Source: a virus. From it: 38,100 nt of DNA. Numbering within the stretch: the stretch's first letter is position 1; each line of letters opens with the position of its first letter. The stretch is taken from positions 1 through 38,100 of the IMG/VR virus record IMGVR_UViG_3300010296_000022; one strand, 5' to 3'. The translations under genes and the position numbers were made by a program. Under the pieces are notes generated by a model. That model saw only the letters and a list, made by a program, of their open reading frames with translations. It was not told the DNA's origin and made no database searches. Below, piece after piece: positions 18,381 through 37,291 of the stretch.

Positions 18381-18393
18381 GGTGTTTGTCACC
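18381..18393 (-). promoter_or_regulatory. Dispersed element, GTGACAAACACC variant, copy 2
   Basis: The minus strand reads GGTGACAAACACC between two late genes, ten bases ahead of an ATG and in the direction of transcription. With the flanking bases it forms TAGGTG-ACAAA-CACCTA, a six-base stem with a five-base loop. A four-residue frame GTG-ACA-AAC-ACC-TAA is contained in it. Confidence 0.65.
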
Positions 18394-28843: not shown

Positions 28844-29061
28844 CAGTTCCACCTGTTGTTTACCTGCTGCTCTTCTTCTTCCTCGTCCTCTTCCTGGTCG
28901 TCCTCAAAATCTGAATCTGCCTGCACATCAAAATCTGAATCTGCCTGACTCAGAATAGACAACCCATACATCAGGTTACCTAGTTGCTGGGGGGTGTTCA
29001 CTTCATTAAGACATTCGACGATATTACCCTCATGATCTTCGAGAGAGATAGTGATAATCAT
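28843..29061 (-). CDS. Small, very acidic protein
   Basis: A 72-residue protein starting MIITISLEDHEGNIVECLNE. The second half is almost only acidic residues and glutamine (FEDDQEEDEEEEEQQVNN). Two copies of QADSDF arise from a 24-base tandem duplication. It starts by ATGA overlap with the helicase gene and ends at the kinase start. Acidic tails like this occur in single-strand DNA-binding partners and in DNA-mimic inhibitors; either role would be speculation. No family recognised. Confidence 0.6.
   Translation of the reverse strand: MIITISLEDHEGNIVECLNEVNTPQQLGNLMYGLSILSQADSDFDVQADSDFEDDQEEDEEEEEQQVNNRWN
28904..28947 (-). repeat. 24-base tandem duplication in the acidic protein gene
   Basis: TCAAAATCTGAATCTGCCTG is present at 28904-28923 and again, identical, at 28928-28947. 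The period is 24 bases (eight codons), so the duplication keeps the frame and repeats QADSDF. The identity suggests a recent slippage event. Confidence 0.85.
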
Positions 29062-30380
29062 TTGATGGAATTGACTAGTATGGGGCCTTCCTCGACTCCC
29101 TTGAATCTACTATTCCATCGCGTGTATTCCAAGCTCACCTTGGCCTCTTGAACTCCATTTCGATTCTTTCGGATCCAGAGGTTCACAATCCCATCATCTG
29201 GCTCCTCATCGGAGGTGTTCTTCATAAGAAAAGCTACGCTGTCAGCGTCCTGTTCTGCTGTCCCAGAGTCCCTTAGATCTGACATCCTGGGTATCTGCTT
29301 CTCCCTCTTCTCAATCTCCCTGTTCATCTGAGCCAACAAGATCACCGGAACCCCGCATTCGAGTGCCATGACCTTGATGGTTCTGGTGATTGCTCCAATC
29401 TCATTAACCCGGTTCTCATATCGTCCACCACTCCTTATGAGAGTCAGGTAATCGATGACCAACATGTCCACTCCCTTGTCCTGCACAAACCTCCTGGCTT
29501 GAGACCTAAGCTGGTCCACGGTGATGGCTGGGGTGTCCTCAATGTGGATCGGTAGCTCGAAGAAATCCTTGGCCGCCTTAGCAAGCTTGGTTTTGTCGCC
29601 CATGCCTGTTTTCAAGTAGTGCCTCACATCCTCTCCCGACATGATGGCAACAGCTCTCTCAGCAATGGAGTTGTAAAGCATCTCAAGGCTCCAGATAGCC
29701 ACCTTCTTGCCCTGCTTAGCTGCTTGGATAGCAAGGAACATGGAGAAAGCAGATTTACCACCACCTGGACGTCCTGAGATGATGTAAACAGCCCCAGGGA
29801 GAAACCCTCCAAGCTTGTCATCCAAACCATATATCCCACTCTTGATGGATAGGTCTGGGACACCGCCATCCTTAGCACTCTCTAGAACGTCCATAAAGGC
29901 CCTCTGAGCCTCTTTCTGATCCTTCTCGGTAGTCATACCCTTAGTGGTCTCCCAAAGAGCGTCCTGAAGGCCCTGAAGAAGCTTTTCGGGATCTTCCTCC
30001 TGCTGTGCTGCTGTCAGTGCATTGTAGTGCTTCATGAACACCTGACGCCTCACATACACGGCATAGGCTTGTTCAGCATAGTAGGACAGGTTTGAAGCGG
30101 TTGAGGATTCACGTATCAGGTCGTCAATGTAAAGGGCTTCAGACATGACTTGGCGACTCACTGTGAACTGGTCAATGGTTCCTCCAGCTTTGGAAACAGA
30201 CTCACAAGCAATCCACACGCGACGGTTCCTGGGATCAGCAAACCAATCCTCTGAAATGCCGAGTTCCTCGGCTTCCGAAAATGCACCAAGAAGGACACAG
30301 CCTAAAAGGCCCTTCTCAGCGAGGATGTCCTCGGGAACATCGTAATCGATAGTGATGGTGTTTTTCTTAGCGGAAATCAT
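29058..30380 (-). CDS. dnaB: Replicative DNA helicase, DnaB type
   Basis: A 440-residue DnaB-family helicase. The N-terminal part (EDILAEKGLLGCVLLG) is the helical collar domain. The RecA-like motor has Walker A GRPGGGKS at 203-210, the KVAIWSLEM strand at 226-234, Walker B MLVIDYLTLI around 306-315, and the QMNREIEKRE and SDLRDSGTAEQDAD blocks (351-380) that hold the hexamer's sensor and arginine-finger regions. It unwinds DNA ahead of the fork. It starts with an ATGA overlap with the winged-helix gene, so initiator and helicase are coupled. No helicase loader is recognised in the window. Confidence 0.93.
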   Translation of the reverse strand: MISAKKNTITIDYDVPEDILAEKGLLGCVLLGAFSEAEELGISEDWFADPRNRRVWIACESVSKAGGTIDQFTVSRQVMSEALYIDDLIRESSTASNLSYYAEQAYAVYVRRQVFMKHYNALTAAQQEEDPEKLLQGLQDALWETTKGMTTEKDQKEAQRAFMDVLESAKDGGVPDLSIKSGIYGLDDKLGGFLPGAVYIISGRPGGGKSAFSMFLAIQAAKQGKKVAIWSLEMLYNSIAERAVAIMSGEDVRHYLKTGMGDKTKLAKAAKDFFELPIHIEDTPAITVDQLRSQARRFVQDKGVDMLVIDYLTLIRSGGRYENRVNEIGAITRTIKVMALECGVPVILLAQMNREIEKREKQIPRMSDLRDSGTAEQDADSVAFLMKNTSDEEPDDGIVNLWIRKNRNGVQEAKVSLEYTRWNSRFKGVEEGPILVNSIK

Positions 30381-30868
30381 ACTTTGTAGAACGGTTTCCC
30401 TGCCTTGATGTCAGCAGGGACGGAGCGAGAGACAGAGTTCCTTTTGGATCTTCCAGCAAGGATGATCTCAGTCATGATCTCATCCCTCTCCTCCTTATTA
30501 CTATTACTATATATATTATCTCTATTAGTTAGTGTCCGTCCTCGCGGACATGTTATATCGTTAACGTGTCCGTCATCGCGGACACGTCGTTGGGCCTTGG
30601 TGTTAGTCATAGAGGCCGACTCTATCGGCTTTCCCTTGCCCCTGGCTAGATAGCAAGTGGATCTGCCTGCCTTTTTCTGGATCAGCCATCCGTGTTCAAC
30701 CAGGGTTTTCAGAGCTTTCCACAACCGGGTCTTACACACTCCGATCCTCTTGGCCATGGTTCTCTTGTCGTCGAAGCAGCAGCCCCTCATGCACACGTAG
30801 AGGTAGGCCTCCCTCTCGATAAGAGAGAAGCCCACCTCATAGATGTGTTCAGGGACCCTTGGGATCAT
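30377..30868 (-). CDS. Winged-helix replication initiator candidate (lambda O-like)
   Basis: A 163-residue protein. Residues about 30-75 form a winged helix (DDKRTMAKRIGVCKTRLWKA, then LVEHGWLIQKKAGRSTCYL). The middle, about 83-125, is low in recognisable structure and is encoded by the inverted repeats and the AT-rich tract described separately. The C-terminal part is basic and ends ADIKAGKPFYKV. A DNA-binding protein just ahead of DnaB, with repeat sites inside its own gene, is the plan of lambda O/P-type initiation. It could instead be only a transcription regulator. It starts with an ATGA overlap with the HNH gene. Confidence 0.65.
   Translation of the reverse strand: MIPRVPEHIYEVGFSLIEREAYLYVCMRGCCFDDKRTMAKRIGVCKTRLWKALKTLVEHGWLIQKKAGRSTCYLARGKGKPIESASMTNTKAQRRVRDDGHVNDITCPRGRTLTNRDNIYSNSNKEERDEIMTEIILAGRSKRNSVSRSVPADIKAGKPFYKV
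30495..30587. other. Candidate replication origin: two iteron-like inverted repeats plus AT-rich tract
   Basis: Two 18-base sites, TGTCCGTCCTCGCGGACA (30533-30550) and TGTCCGTCATCGCGGACA (30567-30584), differ by one base and are 34 bases apart. The second extends to nine-base arms ACGTGTCCG/CGGACACGT. Next to them is an AT-rich tract (about 30495-30532) that could melt. The two copies fall in different reading frames of the surrounding gene, so they are kept as DNA, not as protein repeats. This matches the lambda pattern of iterons and AT-rich DNA inside the initiator gene. An operator function is the main alternative. Confidence 0.6.
30599..30610 (-). promoter_or_regulatory. Dispersed 12-base element, copy 7, inside the initiator gene
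   Basis: Exact ATGACTAACACC on the minus strand, read in frame as MTNT in the initiator protein. It is the only exact copy well inside a gene. It sits 15 bases from the iteron-like repeats, so it may control transcription through the candidate origin. Confidence 0.6.
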
Positions 30869-31290
30869 ACTTCAGCCCAGGCTCCTTGGTAGAACTCCCG
30901 GTCGTAGTGCGGACTGTCGTATCTGAGAACTGGCTCAAACAGGTCCAGAAGATCAGCTACGGCTACGGCCTTCATGCGCTTGATCTTTCTTTTGATGTAA
31001 GCAGCCCGATCCCTCACGGTCGGCATGTCCAGCTCCACGTATATGTCAGCAATGTCGTCCATGGTGAATCCGTCACACAGGTGATGAAATATCATGCACA
31101 ACTCTGCTGAGTCTTTCTTCATGATCCCCAACCGTGTTAAGTCCGGCCCACTCATAGATCTTTCATGGGCCTTACCGTGACAGCTTACGCATAACCACAC
31201 GGTGTTTTCTCCGCTCCGTGACTTAGGCACTACGTGGTGCTGGTGGTTTGCTGGCTCCCCGCACTCAAAACATCTGTTTGACGTGTTCAT
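30865..31290 (-). CDS. HNH endonuclease-like protein
   Basis: A 141-residue protein. The first 45 residues carry an HNH finger: C7-x-x-C10, then HQHHVVPKSRSGENTVWLC with the histidines at 16-19, N29, and C34-x-x-C37H. The rest is helical and basic (YIKRKIKRMKAVAVADLLDL). The ATG follows GGAAG by four bases, and the gene overlaps the initiator by four. Such nucleases in replication blocks may be homing enzymes or may nick during replication and recombination; the role is open. Confidence 0.8.
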   Translation of the reverse strand: MNTSNRCFECGEPANHQHHVVPKSRSGENTVWLCVSCHGKAHERSMSGPDLTRLGIMKKDSAELCMIFHHLCDGFTMDDIADIYVELDMPTVRDRAAYIKRKIKRMKAVAVADLLDLFEPVLRYDSPHYDREFYQGAWAEV

Positions 31291-31301
31291 CGCGCTTCCA
31301 G

Positions 31302-32099
31302 CTACAGCAACTCAATGATTCCAGATTCAACTTTAGGACACCGGGCATATTTCACCTTGATGCCTTTGACCCACTTGTTCCAGTGGTAGCAAAGTTTTGC
31401 ATATACTTGGTATCGTGATGCGCCGTAGCTCTTTATTGGGGAATGCTTCAGCGCGAGGAAGTGGTTCCTCAGGACCAGTATGGGGTCATCTGATTCCATG
31501 TTAGTCCCCTTGCAGAAACGATCATGGAAAATGTAAAGGATAGCAGGGTTCCGCTTCATTGCCTGATAGAAAAAAGCCCCATAAGGAGGCCCAAAACAGA
31601 TTGGCTTGGCAGCAGCAGAAGCGGCTGCTGCCTTAATATACCGCTCTTCGTCGCGTTTGATTTCATTTAAGATTTCGAGGTTGCCAATCGGTCCAGTTTT
31701 AGTTGTAGCGAGATTAATCCTAAACCTTACCAATGCTGCTAAATGGCTGCTGTATTTTAGGCCTGCAATATGAATCGAATCTGTAGCGCTTCGCGGCCTT
31801 CCGTTGTCGATCGTGAATATTGTCTTTTCGCTGCAACTAAGATTTTCGGCCACCATTAGTTTGACAGGCATGTTGGCTGCAATGACTGCATACAGCCGGT
31901 GCTGACCGTCAATCAGGTCACCATCCAGGTTGAACTTGATAGTTTCTCCATTCTCGATCCATTGGTTTGCCCTCATCTCCCTTTGGAATCTGGACACCAA
32001 AGGCTTCGATAGCCTGCGGTTCACGCGGTTTCTTTTCAGCCACTCCCTAGCAATTTGCGGGGTGACATTGACATTTTTAACACTCGGACTGTTATTCAT
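31302..32099 (-). CDS. ParB/DGQHR-type protein
   Basis: A 265-residue protein with ENGETIKFNLDGDLIDGQHR at about 49-68, followed by LYAVIAANMPVKLMV. The DGQHR motif defines a ParB/Srx-like fold seen in phage proteins and in DndB-type regulators. The N-terminal LKRNRVNRRLSKPLVSRFQR is basic. It may bind DNA or nucleotides; no reaction can be assigned. It starts with an ATGA overlap with the upstream gene and is 12 bases ahead of the HNH gene. Confidence 0.7.
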   Translation of the reverse strand: MNNSPSVKNVNVTPQIAREWLKRNRVNRRLSKPLVSRFQREMRANQWIENGETIKFNLDGDLIDGQHRLYAVIAANMPVKLMVAENLSCSEKTIFTIDNGRPRSATDSIHIAGLKYSSHLAALVRFRINLATTKTGPIGNLEILNEIKRDEERYIKAAAASAAAKPICFGPPYGAFFYQAMKRNPAILYIFHDRFCKGTNMESDDPILVLRNHFLALKHSPIKSYGASRYQVYAKLCYHWNKWVKGIKVKYARCPKVESGIIELL

Positions 32100-34422: not shown

Positions 34423-34468
34423 ACGTGCGTTGTGAATAAGTTTTTGTAAAAATTGCTTGCTTACATGT

Positions 34469-34840: not shown

Positions 34841-35809
34841 ATGCACAATGGCATTGTGGGGGTCAGGGGTTCGACTCCCCTCGGCTCCACCAAATTTACT
34901 TCAGGGGAACCTTCCCTTTTTCTCTCCAGCCAAGACCAAAAGGTTGTTGAGGAAATGTGGGAAAACGGTGTCTCCCTCATCCAAGTGTGGTCCGATTGGC
35001 GTCGGTTGTATCTCGCTAGCGATCAGTCAGTCAAGCAATCTGTTCACCTTTTTTTATCCCACCTTCAACAGGCCCACTACAGCCACCGCTATTGCCAAGA
35101 ATTTGGTTATGTCCTGAGACGTCTCAGCCTGTTCATAGATGTTGAGGTCCCCATCTGTCAGGTCTCCACAAAAAGTTGGTGGAGATCTCTGGATGCAATG
35201 AAGGCTGGAGATGCAGCTAGAAGGAAGGTGTCGGTGTTTTTGAACTGGTGTTTGAAACAAGGCTTTATCAAGGAACCCGTCGTAATCCACGGCAAGCCAT
35301 CGATGCCTGATGGCGAGATCCAAGTGCTACCCAATCGAGTTGTTGCCTCGCTTATCCAAAGCTGTCCTTTAGATCTTCTGGGTTACCTTTGGTTGTGTCT
35401 CTGCATGGGGCTAAGAGTGGCCGAAGCAAAACGGACTGAACACCTAGCCCACCGGGATGGTTGCCTGATAGTTGGGGCCTCCGCTGCCAAGACTAGGACC
35501 AGACGAGTCCTAGACATTCTCCCTGGTCATGGGAAATTCGCTGAACTTATCCAGCCTCAGATCAACCTGAAGAAACGTATGCTCGCCCTCAGGGCCGACT
35601 CTGGGATCTCGGACTGGCCCAGGAACTGTATGCGCCACACAGCAGCTTCTCACTGGCTAAACAAACTTCGATCCGCTGAGTCGGCTGCACTCCACCTCGG
35701 AAACTCTCCGGTCATGCTTCACCGTCACTACAAGGCCCTAGTCACTAAGAAGGAATCAGAAGAATTCTTCGCCATCTGGGACGAGGCATTGTCAAGGAAA
35801 TTTGGTTAG
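34841..35809 (+). CDS. int: Tyrosine recombinase / phage integrase with attP in its 5' end
   Basis: A 322-residue tyrosine recombinase. The catalytic set is R192 (CMGLRVAEAKR), K217 (AAKTRTRRVLD), N262-x-x-R265 (NCMRHTAAS), N288 (HLGNSP) and nucleophile Y297 (HRHYKALV). The usual histidines at the first and fourth of these positions are asparagine, a pattern I recall from PVC-group integrases. ATG 34841 follows AGGAGG by five bases, so this start is well supported. Codons 3-17 lie in the 3' half of a tRNA-Ala sequence, the likely attachment site. A crossover there would remove the start and ribosome site from the gene body. It inserts and probably excises the phage. Confidence 0.9.
   Translation: MHNGIVGVRGSTPLGSTKFTSGEPSLFLSSQDQKVVEEMWENGVSLIQVWSDWRRLYLASDQSVKQSVHLFLSHLQQAHYSHRYCQEFGYVLRRLSLFIDVEVPICQVSTKSWWRSLDAMKAGDAARRKVSVFLNWCLKQGFIKEPVVIHGKPSMPDGEIQVLPNRVVASLIQSCPLDLLGYLWLCLCMGLRVAEAKRTEHLAHRDGCLIVGASAAKTRTRRVLDILPGHGKFAELIQPQINLKKRMLALRADSGISDWPRNCMRHTAASHWLNKLRSAESAALHLGNSPVMLHRHYKALVTKKESEEFFAIWDEALSRKFG
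34848..34892 (+). other. attP: Phage attachment site: 3' half of tRNA-Ala(GGC)
   Basis: The 45 bases fit canonical tRNA positions 32 to 76 without gaps. They give anticodon loop ATGGCAT (anticodon GGC), stem 39-43 TGTGG, a five-base variable loop GGGTC, T arm AGGGG-TTCGACT-CCCCT, acceptor strand CGGCTCC, discriminator A and CCA. U at position 70 agrees with the G3-U70 pair of tRNA-Ala. Four of five bases upstream (34844-34847) still pair with the 3' anticodon stem. There is no 5' half, so this is not a tRNA gene but a piece that would restore a host tRNA-Ala on integration. Confidence 0.85.
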
Positions 35810-36276: not shown

Positions 36277-36288
36277 ATGACTAACACC
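36277..36288 (+). promoter_or_regulatory. Dispersed 12-base element, copy 11, forms the methyltransferase start
   Basis: Exact ATGACTAACACC on the plus strand, directly after a TGA stop. Its ATG is the first ATG of the methyltransferase frame, giving MTNTSYGM. An internal ATG eight codons in is an alternative start. Confidence 0.65.
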
Positions 36289-37287
36289 TCTTATGGCATG
36301 GCACACACACTTACAACTTTCCACCTCTTCGCAGGAGCAGGAGGAGGAATTCTCGCTGACATCTTACTTGGACACAATCCAGTCGGAGCGTGTGAAATTG
36401 AACCCTACCCACGTAACATCCTGCTCCAACGGCAACGCGACGGATACCTCCCAAGCTTCCCTGTGTGGGATGATGTGGCTACCCTCGACGGAAATCCTTG
36501 GCGAGGAACAGTTGACATTCTTTGTGGAGGATTTCCCTGCCAAGACATCTCAGCAGCAAACCCAAAGGGCAAAGGAATTGAGGGAAGTCGGTCAGGACTT
36601 TGGAAGGAGTATTCAAGGCTTATTGATGAGATCCAACCTGCAATTGTCTTTGCCGAAAACAGCCCGCTGCTTCGGACCAGAGGACTTGGAACCGTCCTCA
36701 AGGACCTTGCCAAGTTGGGGTATAATGCACGATGGGGAATTATGGGAGCTAGGCACGTCTCTGCACCCCACAGAAGAGACCGCATGTGGGTATTGGCCTA
36801 CCGTCACGACAGATCCTTCAATGAGAAGCACGAAATACAAACAGGGGGGGACACCTCTTTCGTATGCAGTTCAGCAGAAGCAGTGGATCACTCCGACAGC
36901 TTACGATGCGAAGGGGACTCAGAGGTGGAGGGAAGAGTTTCAAAATGGATTGGTGGCGCAAGTCGCCAACCCCGCACAGTGGCCAACCCCGCGAGCAAAC
37001 GACCACAAAGGGGGAGAGGCCCCAAGAAGCCTGACGAGGAAGGACGGGAAATCCAGAATGGACAAGATTCCCAATGTGGTCGCTTATGGTGGGCTAACGA
37101 CCCAGCAGATCTCAGAGCTGGATCAGACGTCGGCTCACAGGACATTACGGATCAACCCGTCGTGGACAGAATGGCTGATGGGGTGGCCTATCGGGTGGAC
37201 AGACTCAAGGCCATTGGAAACGGCCAAGTTCCGCAATGTGCAGCATTGGCATTCAGAGTTTTGTCGCACGGACTTTTGCCAATATGA
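36277..37287 (+). CDS. dcm: DNA cytosine-5 methyltransferase (Dcm-like)
   Basis: A 336-residue C5 cytosine methyltransferase. Motif I is LFAGAGGG (17-24), motif IV GGFPCQ (84-89) with catalytic C88, motif VI AEN (126-128), motif VIII HRRDRMW (165-171), and motif X KAIGNGQVP (311-319) after RVDRL. All key residues are present, so activity is likely. The target recognition region (about 175-300) is unusual and arginine- and glycine-rich. The enzyme would mark phage DNA against host restriction or regulate expression. A second long frame covers nearly the whole gene. Its stop TGA lies in the next copy of the dispersed element. Confidence 0.92.
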   Translation: MTNTSYGMAHTLTTFHLFAGAGGGILADILLGHNPVGACEIEPYPRNILLQRQRDGYLPSFPVWDDVATLDGNPWRGTVDILCGGFPCQDISAANPKGKGIEGSRSGLWKEYSRLIDEIQPAIVFAENSPLLRTRGLGTVLKDLAKLGYNARWGIMGARHVSAPHRRDRMWVLAYRHDRSFNEKHEIQTGGDTSFVCSSAEAVDHSDSLRCEGDSEVEGRVSKWIGGASRQPRTVANPASKRPQRGRGPKKPDEEGREIQNGQDSQCGRLWWANDPADLRAGSDVGSQDITDQPVVDRMADGVAYRVDRLKAIGNGQVPQCAALAFRVLSHGLLPI

Positions 37288-37291
37288 CTAA
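36293..37291 (+). CDS. 332-codon overlapping frame inside the methyltransferase gene
   Basis: Shifted by one base from the methyltransferase, this frame stays open for 332 codons. The product has its own pattern: LTFFVEDFPAKTS (74-86), DFGRS (102-106), LPSWGIMHDGELWEL (139-153), and three related repeats, YWPTVTTD, WITPTAYDAKGT and WPTPRANDHKGG. It ends in NPSWTEWLMGWPIGWTD (288-304). I recall phage database entries with this same order, LxLFLE-AKTS through repeated WPTP to GWTDL. It ends in TAA four bases past the methyltransferase stop. It may be a real overprinted gene, or a by-product of conserved methyltransferase codons. Confidence 0.5.
   Translation: MAWHTHLQLSTSSQEQEEEFSLTSYLDTIQSERVKLNPTHVTSCSNGNATDTSQASLCGMMWLPSTEILGEEQLTFFVEDFPAKTSQQQTQRAKELREVGQDFGRSIQGLLMRSNLQLSLPKTARCFGPEDLEPSSRTLPSWGIMHDGELWELGTSLHPTEETACGYWPTVTTDPSMRSTKYKQGGTPLSYAVQQKQWITPTAYDAKGTQRWREEFQNGLVAQVANPAQWPTPRANDHKGGEAPRSLTRKDGKSRMDKIPNVVAYGGLTTQQISELDQTSAHRTLRINPSWTEWLMGWPIGWTDSRPLETAKFRNVQHWHSEFCRTDFCQYD

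Follow-up and report, generated by a model that had tools for sequence, protein, structure and literature searches.

It is rare for the replication origin of an uncultivated phage to be pinpointed by sequence analysis, and the locus described here raises the question of whether a short segment inside the gene directly ahead of a phage dnaB might be one. The stretch of DNA analyzed, hereafter the window, comprises positions 1 to 38,100 of the 38,100-base IMG/VR record IMGVR_UViG_3300010296_000022. An earlier examination of its letters (the sequence-only reading) had proposed that two inverted-repeat sites beside an AT-rich tract form a lambda-like origin within an initiator gene.

A Dyad Pair Adjoins the Least Stable DNA of the Window

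The gene in question (30377..30868, minus strand), a winged-helix (WH) replication initiator gene according to ORF, PHROG, and AlphaFold2 evidence, encodes 163 residues and would house the origin. Its end shares 4 bases with the next gene, which encodes a DnaB-type replicative helicase (29058..30380, minus strand; Pfam DnaB_C, E = 1.1e-64; PHROG 19, E = 1.5e-81). In the AlphaFold2 model of the WH protein, with a mean pLDDT of 62, the winged helix (residues 7-75) is followed by a low-confidence linker (residues 85-125, pLDDT under 50) and a helix at residues 125-141. The sequence-only reading was thus right to place a winged-helix gene directly ahead of DnaB. The linker-coding stretch defined by the model (30494..30616, minus strand) is nearly exactly the interval marked by that reading and coincides with the putative origin.

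Within this stretch lie two 18-bp dyads of the form TGTCCG-N6-CGGACA, both on the minus strand. Dyad 1 (30567..30584; TGTCCG-CGATGA-CGGACA; TGTCCGTCATCGCGGACA) is distal to the AT-rich tract, and dyad 2 (30533..30550; TGTCCG-CGAGGA-CGGACA; TGTCCGTCCTCGCGGACA) adjoins it. As had been claimed, they are identical at 17 of 18 bases with a start-to-start distance of 34, and no other such pair exists in the record. Together with their flanks, the dyads are the sole matches at ≤3 mismatches in the 38,100 bases, and such a pair arose in none of 100 shuffles. They are also the only two perfect dyads with 6-bp arms in the window that share a like arm and loop (like dyad pair within 100 bp: 0/60 shuffles). 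The two starts differ in codon phase (2 and 0 modulo 3), which confirms that the copies are in different reading frames.

Directly after dyad 2 comes a CTAACTAAT junction (30524..30532, minus strand), within the 38-base AT-rich tract (30495..30532, no strand assigned) that is the presumed unwinding element. This tract, correctly singled out before, proved to be the AT-richest and least stable DNA of the record: the AT-richest 38-base windows (84%) start at 30494-30496, and the weakest 40-, 50-, and 100-base windows by nearest-neighbor energy start at 30494, 30486, and 30434, respectively. The least stable stretch of the 38.1-kb record therefore abuts dyad 2. At 30.5 kb the cumulative GC skew does not turn, and there are no DnaA boxes near the putative origin, the two loose matches to the consensus in the window lying at 34439 (minus strand) and 37953 (plus strand). 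A third, weaker repeat reported at about 30613-30631 (30616-30630) is not conserved: several close relatives have broken arms there, and it hence lies outside the origin element.

The Dyads Persist in Divergent Relatives

Close relatives comprise seven IMG/VR contigs whose WH genes show 93-98% identity. Searching with the large terminase yielded 50 loci, including three with WH genes of 58-69% identity and seven of 28-32% (tblastn; for six of these seven proteins, 25-29% over whole proteins), and a second scan, with a WH alignment, gave 28 loci. We found iterons at the same place, the linker, in 26 of 31 WH genes (window included), down to 25-32% identity. The 93-98% clade has two dyads 34 bp apart with arms TGTCCG/CGGACA, the 69% clade has two dyads 34 bp apart with arms TGTACG/CGTACA or CGGACA, and the distant clade has three or four dyads 23 bp apart, with TGTCTC, TGTCGC, TGTCCT, or TGTATC facing GGGACA or GATACA. 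Since the two spacings differ by 11 bp, approximately one helical turn, the dyads' faces would stay roughly in register. In all 17 iteron genes scored, CTAACTAAT follows the last dyad and leads into AT-rich DNA; the distant clade has a run of ACTAATCAA-like repeats there.

Within the dyads, change is unevenly spread. In the seven close relatives both arms are unchanged, and the loops read CGAGGA, CGATGA, or CCATCA. Among the distinct sequences of the window clade, variable columns number 0/24 in arms, 4/12 in loops, and 50/456 in the rest of the gene; arms differ from loops (Fisher P = 0.008), and the comparison of arms with the remainder of the gene does not by itself reach significance (P = 0.16). 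Across clades, in the sequences compared, the arms covary as palindromes. Over 23 distinct sites, 92% of the arm cells are paired versus 80.9% when shuffled (0/500 shuffles reach this value), which is not to be read as a probability since the sites are kin by descent, and 12 cells are doubly changed versus 4.3 in shuffles. When the arms are slid as a control, pairing drops to 13-57%. No recognition-helix residue tracks the change of arm from TGTCCG to TGTACG, the helix of the HTH being identical between the two clades.

Synonymous sites tell a similar story. When the window is compared with five genes of the 69% clade, codons 86-115, which hold the iterons and a dispersed element described below, show 0.13-0.20 synonymous differences per site versus 0.57-0.69 in the WH domain, while nonsynonymous differences are alike in the two regions (0.16-0.20 versus 0.14-0.16). 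Over the AT-tract codons both kinds of difference are high (about 0.5-0.6), and so it is composition that is kept there, not sequence. Along with the arm covariation and an intergenic copy of the module, these data support the earlier claim that the DNA, and not the protein, appears to be conserved.

In a Sister Lineage the Module Lies between Genes

The remaining 5 of the 31 WH genes (L124-L128, 27-31% identity) have no iterons, and the linker is missing from the WH proteins read in L124 and L126. An intact protein with no repeats in its gene had been set down in advance as the finding that would count against the sequence-only reading. Such genes do exist; in two of the five, however, the module is present elsewhere, and the other three are on short contigs. 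The two cases are the longest contigs among the five, namely the 44,230-base record behind L126 and the contig behind L127, in which the module lies outside the WH gene, about 5 kb upstream. Its two dyads, spaced by 23 bp, have a new sequence (GGTTCCA/TGGAACC type), and CTAACTAATCAAAG comes after them; the CTAACTAAT junction is present in this copy too. In the 44,230-base record it sits between two convergent ORFs (unannotated; our own ORF reading), far from dnaB. No such pattern was found in the remaining three contigs, which are 4.6-8.4 kb long. Because the module is intergenic where the WH protein has no linker, the DNA is what is kept, and the intergenic copy favors a DNA element and speaks against an operator for dnaB.

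Dyad Clusters Occur at Known Origins and Recur in Genes ahead of dnaB or a Loader

To gauge the specificity of this signal, a dyad-cluster detector was run over 418,399 bases, shuffled sequence giving 0.025 clusters per 38 kb. Each of the eight iteron-group records scanned had a single cluster, which fell within its WH gene; the detector also found the intergenic module of G014 and, as a positive control, lambda ori. Nothing was found on G019 and Phage C75C1, and one further dyad pair lies beside the integrase end in G009 and G016. Applied to P22, the detector finds the origin, but since a pair in the annotated left operators is flagged as well, a dyad cluster alone is no proof of an origin.

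In a screen of 23 loci, just two outside the iteron family, L021 and L022, had clusters, in each case within the gene that precedes dnaB. Clusters also occur in the WH gene ahead of a DnaC-like loader in L131 (a genome of the phylum of the Verrucomicrobia metagenome-assembled genome [MAG] mentioned below). Among stretches beside the TerL hits in six genomes of that phylum, a single one, L199, has a dyad pair in the gene that precedes dnaB, and its spacing is again 34 bp. The WH/iteron family suggests a rule for finding such elements: like dyads should be sought in the linker-coding part of whichever gene precedes dnaB or the loader. The unrelated initiators of L021, L022, L131, and L199 show the same. 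In the chromosomal stretches L136, L197, L199, L200, and L201, some clusters occur at other places.

In L019, L020, and L022, the gene ahead of DnaB encodes a linker with tandem peptide repeats, probably reflecting additional intragenic iteron arrays in unrelated phages. Two relatives (L138:6394-6443 and L151:17961-18010) have, immediately past the integrase gene, GCTAAG-N8-CTTAGC with an imperfect copy 30 bp on; these are likely operators, and the dyad detector found no pair of this type in the window.

The Segment Is Very Probably a Replication Origin

We consider it very probable that the segment is a theta-type origin of a temperate phage, at which the WH protein would bind the dyads, the DNA melt, and the phage DnaB be loaded. 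Sites, AT tract, conservation, covariation, gene order, and relocation in the sister lineage can all be read directly from the DNA; dimer binding, melting, and helicase loading are proposed by analogy with lambda. The WH protein, probably as a dimer, would bind each 18-bp dyad, and the two bound dyads, whose 34-bp spacing is one turn more than the 23 bp of the distant clade, would form a nucleoprotein complex that melts the adjoining CTAACTAAT/AT-rich tract. The phage's own DnaB would then be loaded on the opened strand, perhaps via the C-terminal helix of the initiator. We propose that the origin sits in linker-coding DNA because the linker tolerates sequence change.

This layout has known counterparts. 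As described in PMC3349717, lambda ori consists of four 18-bp iterons and a 38-bp AT-rich sequence in gene O; O dimers occupy the four inverted repeats beside an AT tract given as 38-40 bp (PMC7466680, PMC5043065, and PMC3349717). The minimum for unwinding stated in PMC7466680, two iterons plus the AT region, fits the two-site form of the window. Both systems have 18-bp imperfect inverted-repeat iterons and then an AT-rich tract in the middle of an initiator gene, and the lambda iteron spacing as described, 20-24 bp, is like the 23 bp of the distant clade. Lambda differs in having four iterons, a P gene beside O, and the use of host DnaB, whereas the window has two iterons and a phage DnaB. 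The closest known layout is that of P22, where a rep_origin is annotated inside gene 18, which is followed, with a 4-base overlap, by the DnaB-like gene 12. At this origin our detector picks out dyads with a 24-bp spacing, and an AT-rich tract follows. However, the annotation of gp18 is O-like, with 34% identity to lambda O, and the P22 dyad sequences are unrelated to the two sites, 34 bp apart, of the window. Of the lambda/P22 type of architecture, the window shows multiple dyads in the initiator gene, an adjoining AT tract, and DnaB next; 25 relatives have 2-4 such dyads in the gene. The proposal of a lambda-like origin in an initiator gene has survived the sequence-based tests applied here, and the relatives extend it.

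The relatives form a graded series, from 98% down to 25-32% protein identity, along which sites, spacing, and initiator diverge stepwise; with the sister lineage that has the module outside the gene, this makes both the co-evolution of initiator and iterons and the intragenic placement testable by swapping. It may even be, and we suggest this tentatively, that the origin is modular and relocatable, with a fixed unwinding element (CTAACTAAT plus AT tract) and interchangeable dyad arrays, in or out of the initiator gene, the linker existing only while it houses the origin. The unwinding element would then perhaps be read by a conserved or host factor, and the arrays would be recoded lineage by lineage with helical phase (23 or 34 bp) kept.

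Other functions for the dyads have to be weighed. They could be operators, by which the WH protein or another regulator controls transcription into dnaB from a promoter in the AT tract, the origin being elsewhere. Dyads of such size are typical for operators, as the detection of the P22 left operators also illustrates, many MarR/ArsR-type regulators appear among the Foldseek matches to the WH model, and dnaB begins about 115-150 bp past the AT tract. We nevertheless regard this as unlikely since a search for promoters of the sigma-70 type found 0 in 29900-31400, the sister-lineage module lies between convergent (unannotated) ORFs far from dnaB, and three or four evenly spaced copies with a CTAACTAAT tract are more reminiscent of an iteron array.

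We give still less credence to the idea that the dyads are hairpins, i.e., RNA regulatory stems or single-strand priming sites instead of duplex protein sites. Nearly every copy in the distant clade has a mismatch or T-G at arm pair 5-14, the polarity being fixed (TGTCYC...GGGACA), there is no Rfam match, and the module persists between genes and, in the window, adjoins the least stable DNA. These points outweigh the covariation of the arms, the folding of each 18-mer to a 6-bp stem (-5 kcal/mol), and a 61-mer fold unmatched by any of 200 shuffles. It is least credible of all that the repeats arose by chance or as a by-product of coding for linker peptides, with no role of the DNA. Although repeats do give repeated peptides in some unrelated initiators (L022 and L131), the copies in the window are in different frames, synonymous sites are more conserved than the protein, and an intergenic copy exists.

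Identity of the WH Protein

Among PHROG families, the WH protein itself shows weak similarity (best 7e-4) to those labeled "replication initiation protein," "DnaD-like helicase loader," and "O-like"; its relatives give stronger initiator-family matches. Its best matches of this kind, the DnaD-like/O-like families PHROG 270, 186, 678, and 391, share a WH N-terminal domain with it; at 163 residues, however, it is much shorter than these profiles, and the scores are weak. Judged by PHROG, the WH protein and its relatives appear nearest to phage initiators. With hhalign, E values were 0.36 and 0.055 against lambda O alone and 0.0053 (probability 6.8%) and 0.059 against the lambda and P22 pair, values that do not make a convincing case for homology to either lambda O or P22 gp18. 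A search of 50,697 phage records gave no match up to E = 1, while the hits from PDB sequence search and Foldseek were all generic winged helices, none of the Foldseek hits reaching E ≤ 0.001. We found no description of the WH/iteron family in the literature covered, most subscription journals being outside that coverage. Within the gene, at 30475-30500 (minus strand), AAGGAGG is followed by ATG, and a tiny ORF overlaps an in-frame ATG; an internal start here, yielding a C-terminal fragment of the initiator, is possible.

A Dispersed Element and Other Features of the Window

An exact copy of a dispersed element, GGTGTTAGTCAT, neighbors the origin module (30599..30610, plus strand), 14 bases from the nearer dyad. 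The window holds eight exact copies (690, 26609, 30599, 34411, and 34728 on the plus strand; 35915, 36277, and 37284 on the minus strand), as well as GGTGTTTGTCAC variants at 18381, 23997, and 28334, and by the ORF list the GGTGTTAGTCAT copies mostly point against the direction of the surrounding genes. The form GGTGTTWGTCAY occurs 7-11 times in four relatives and once or twice in two others, and is absent from the distant-clade records G010, G018, and G020. In the two nearer clades the WH gene contains the element; in the distant clade it does not. That the element might control transcription through the origin, as the sequence-only reading had suggested, is unsupported, and we rejected it as a necessary control since the 25-32% identity clade has iterons without the element in the gene. 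It is a separate system, a copy of which happens to be near the origin in the two nearer clades. Mycobacteriophage L5 has many asymmetric 13-bp stoperators, which lie in one orientation relative to transcription and are bound by the immunity repressor. GGTGTTAGTCAT resembles the L5 stoperator sequence GGTGGMTGTCAAG given in PMC3029335, and the copies are possibly a stoperator-like system outside mycobacteriophages.

As for the host, the TerL alignment matches one contig in genome_contigs, from a Verrucomicrobia MAG, and 12 of 387 genomes of that phylum, the sole phylum covered in the latter search; the host is perhaps a member of Verrucomicrobiota. At the start of the integrase ORF, 34841-34893 resembles the 3′ end of a tRNA or tmRNA (GGTTCGACTCCCCTCGGCTCCACCA) and is a probable attP, with no exact match of this tRNA end in the 387 genomes. 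Finally, two long ORFs overlap in different frames at 36277-37291, both resembling, by eye, parts of a DNA cytosine methyltransferase, which would point to a frameshift, a sequencing error, or recoding.
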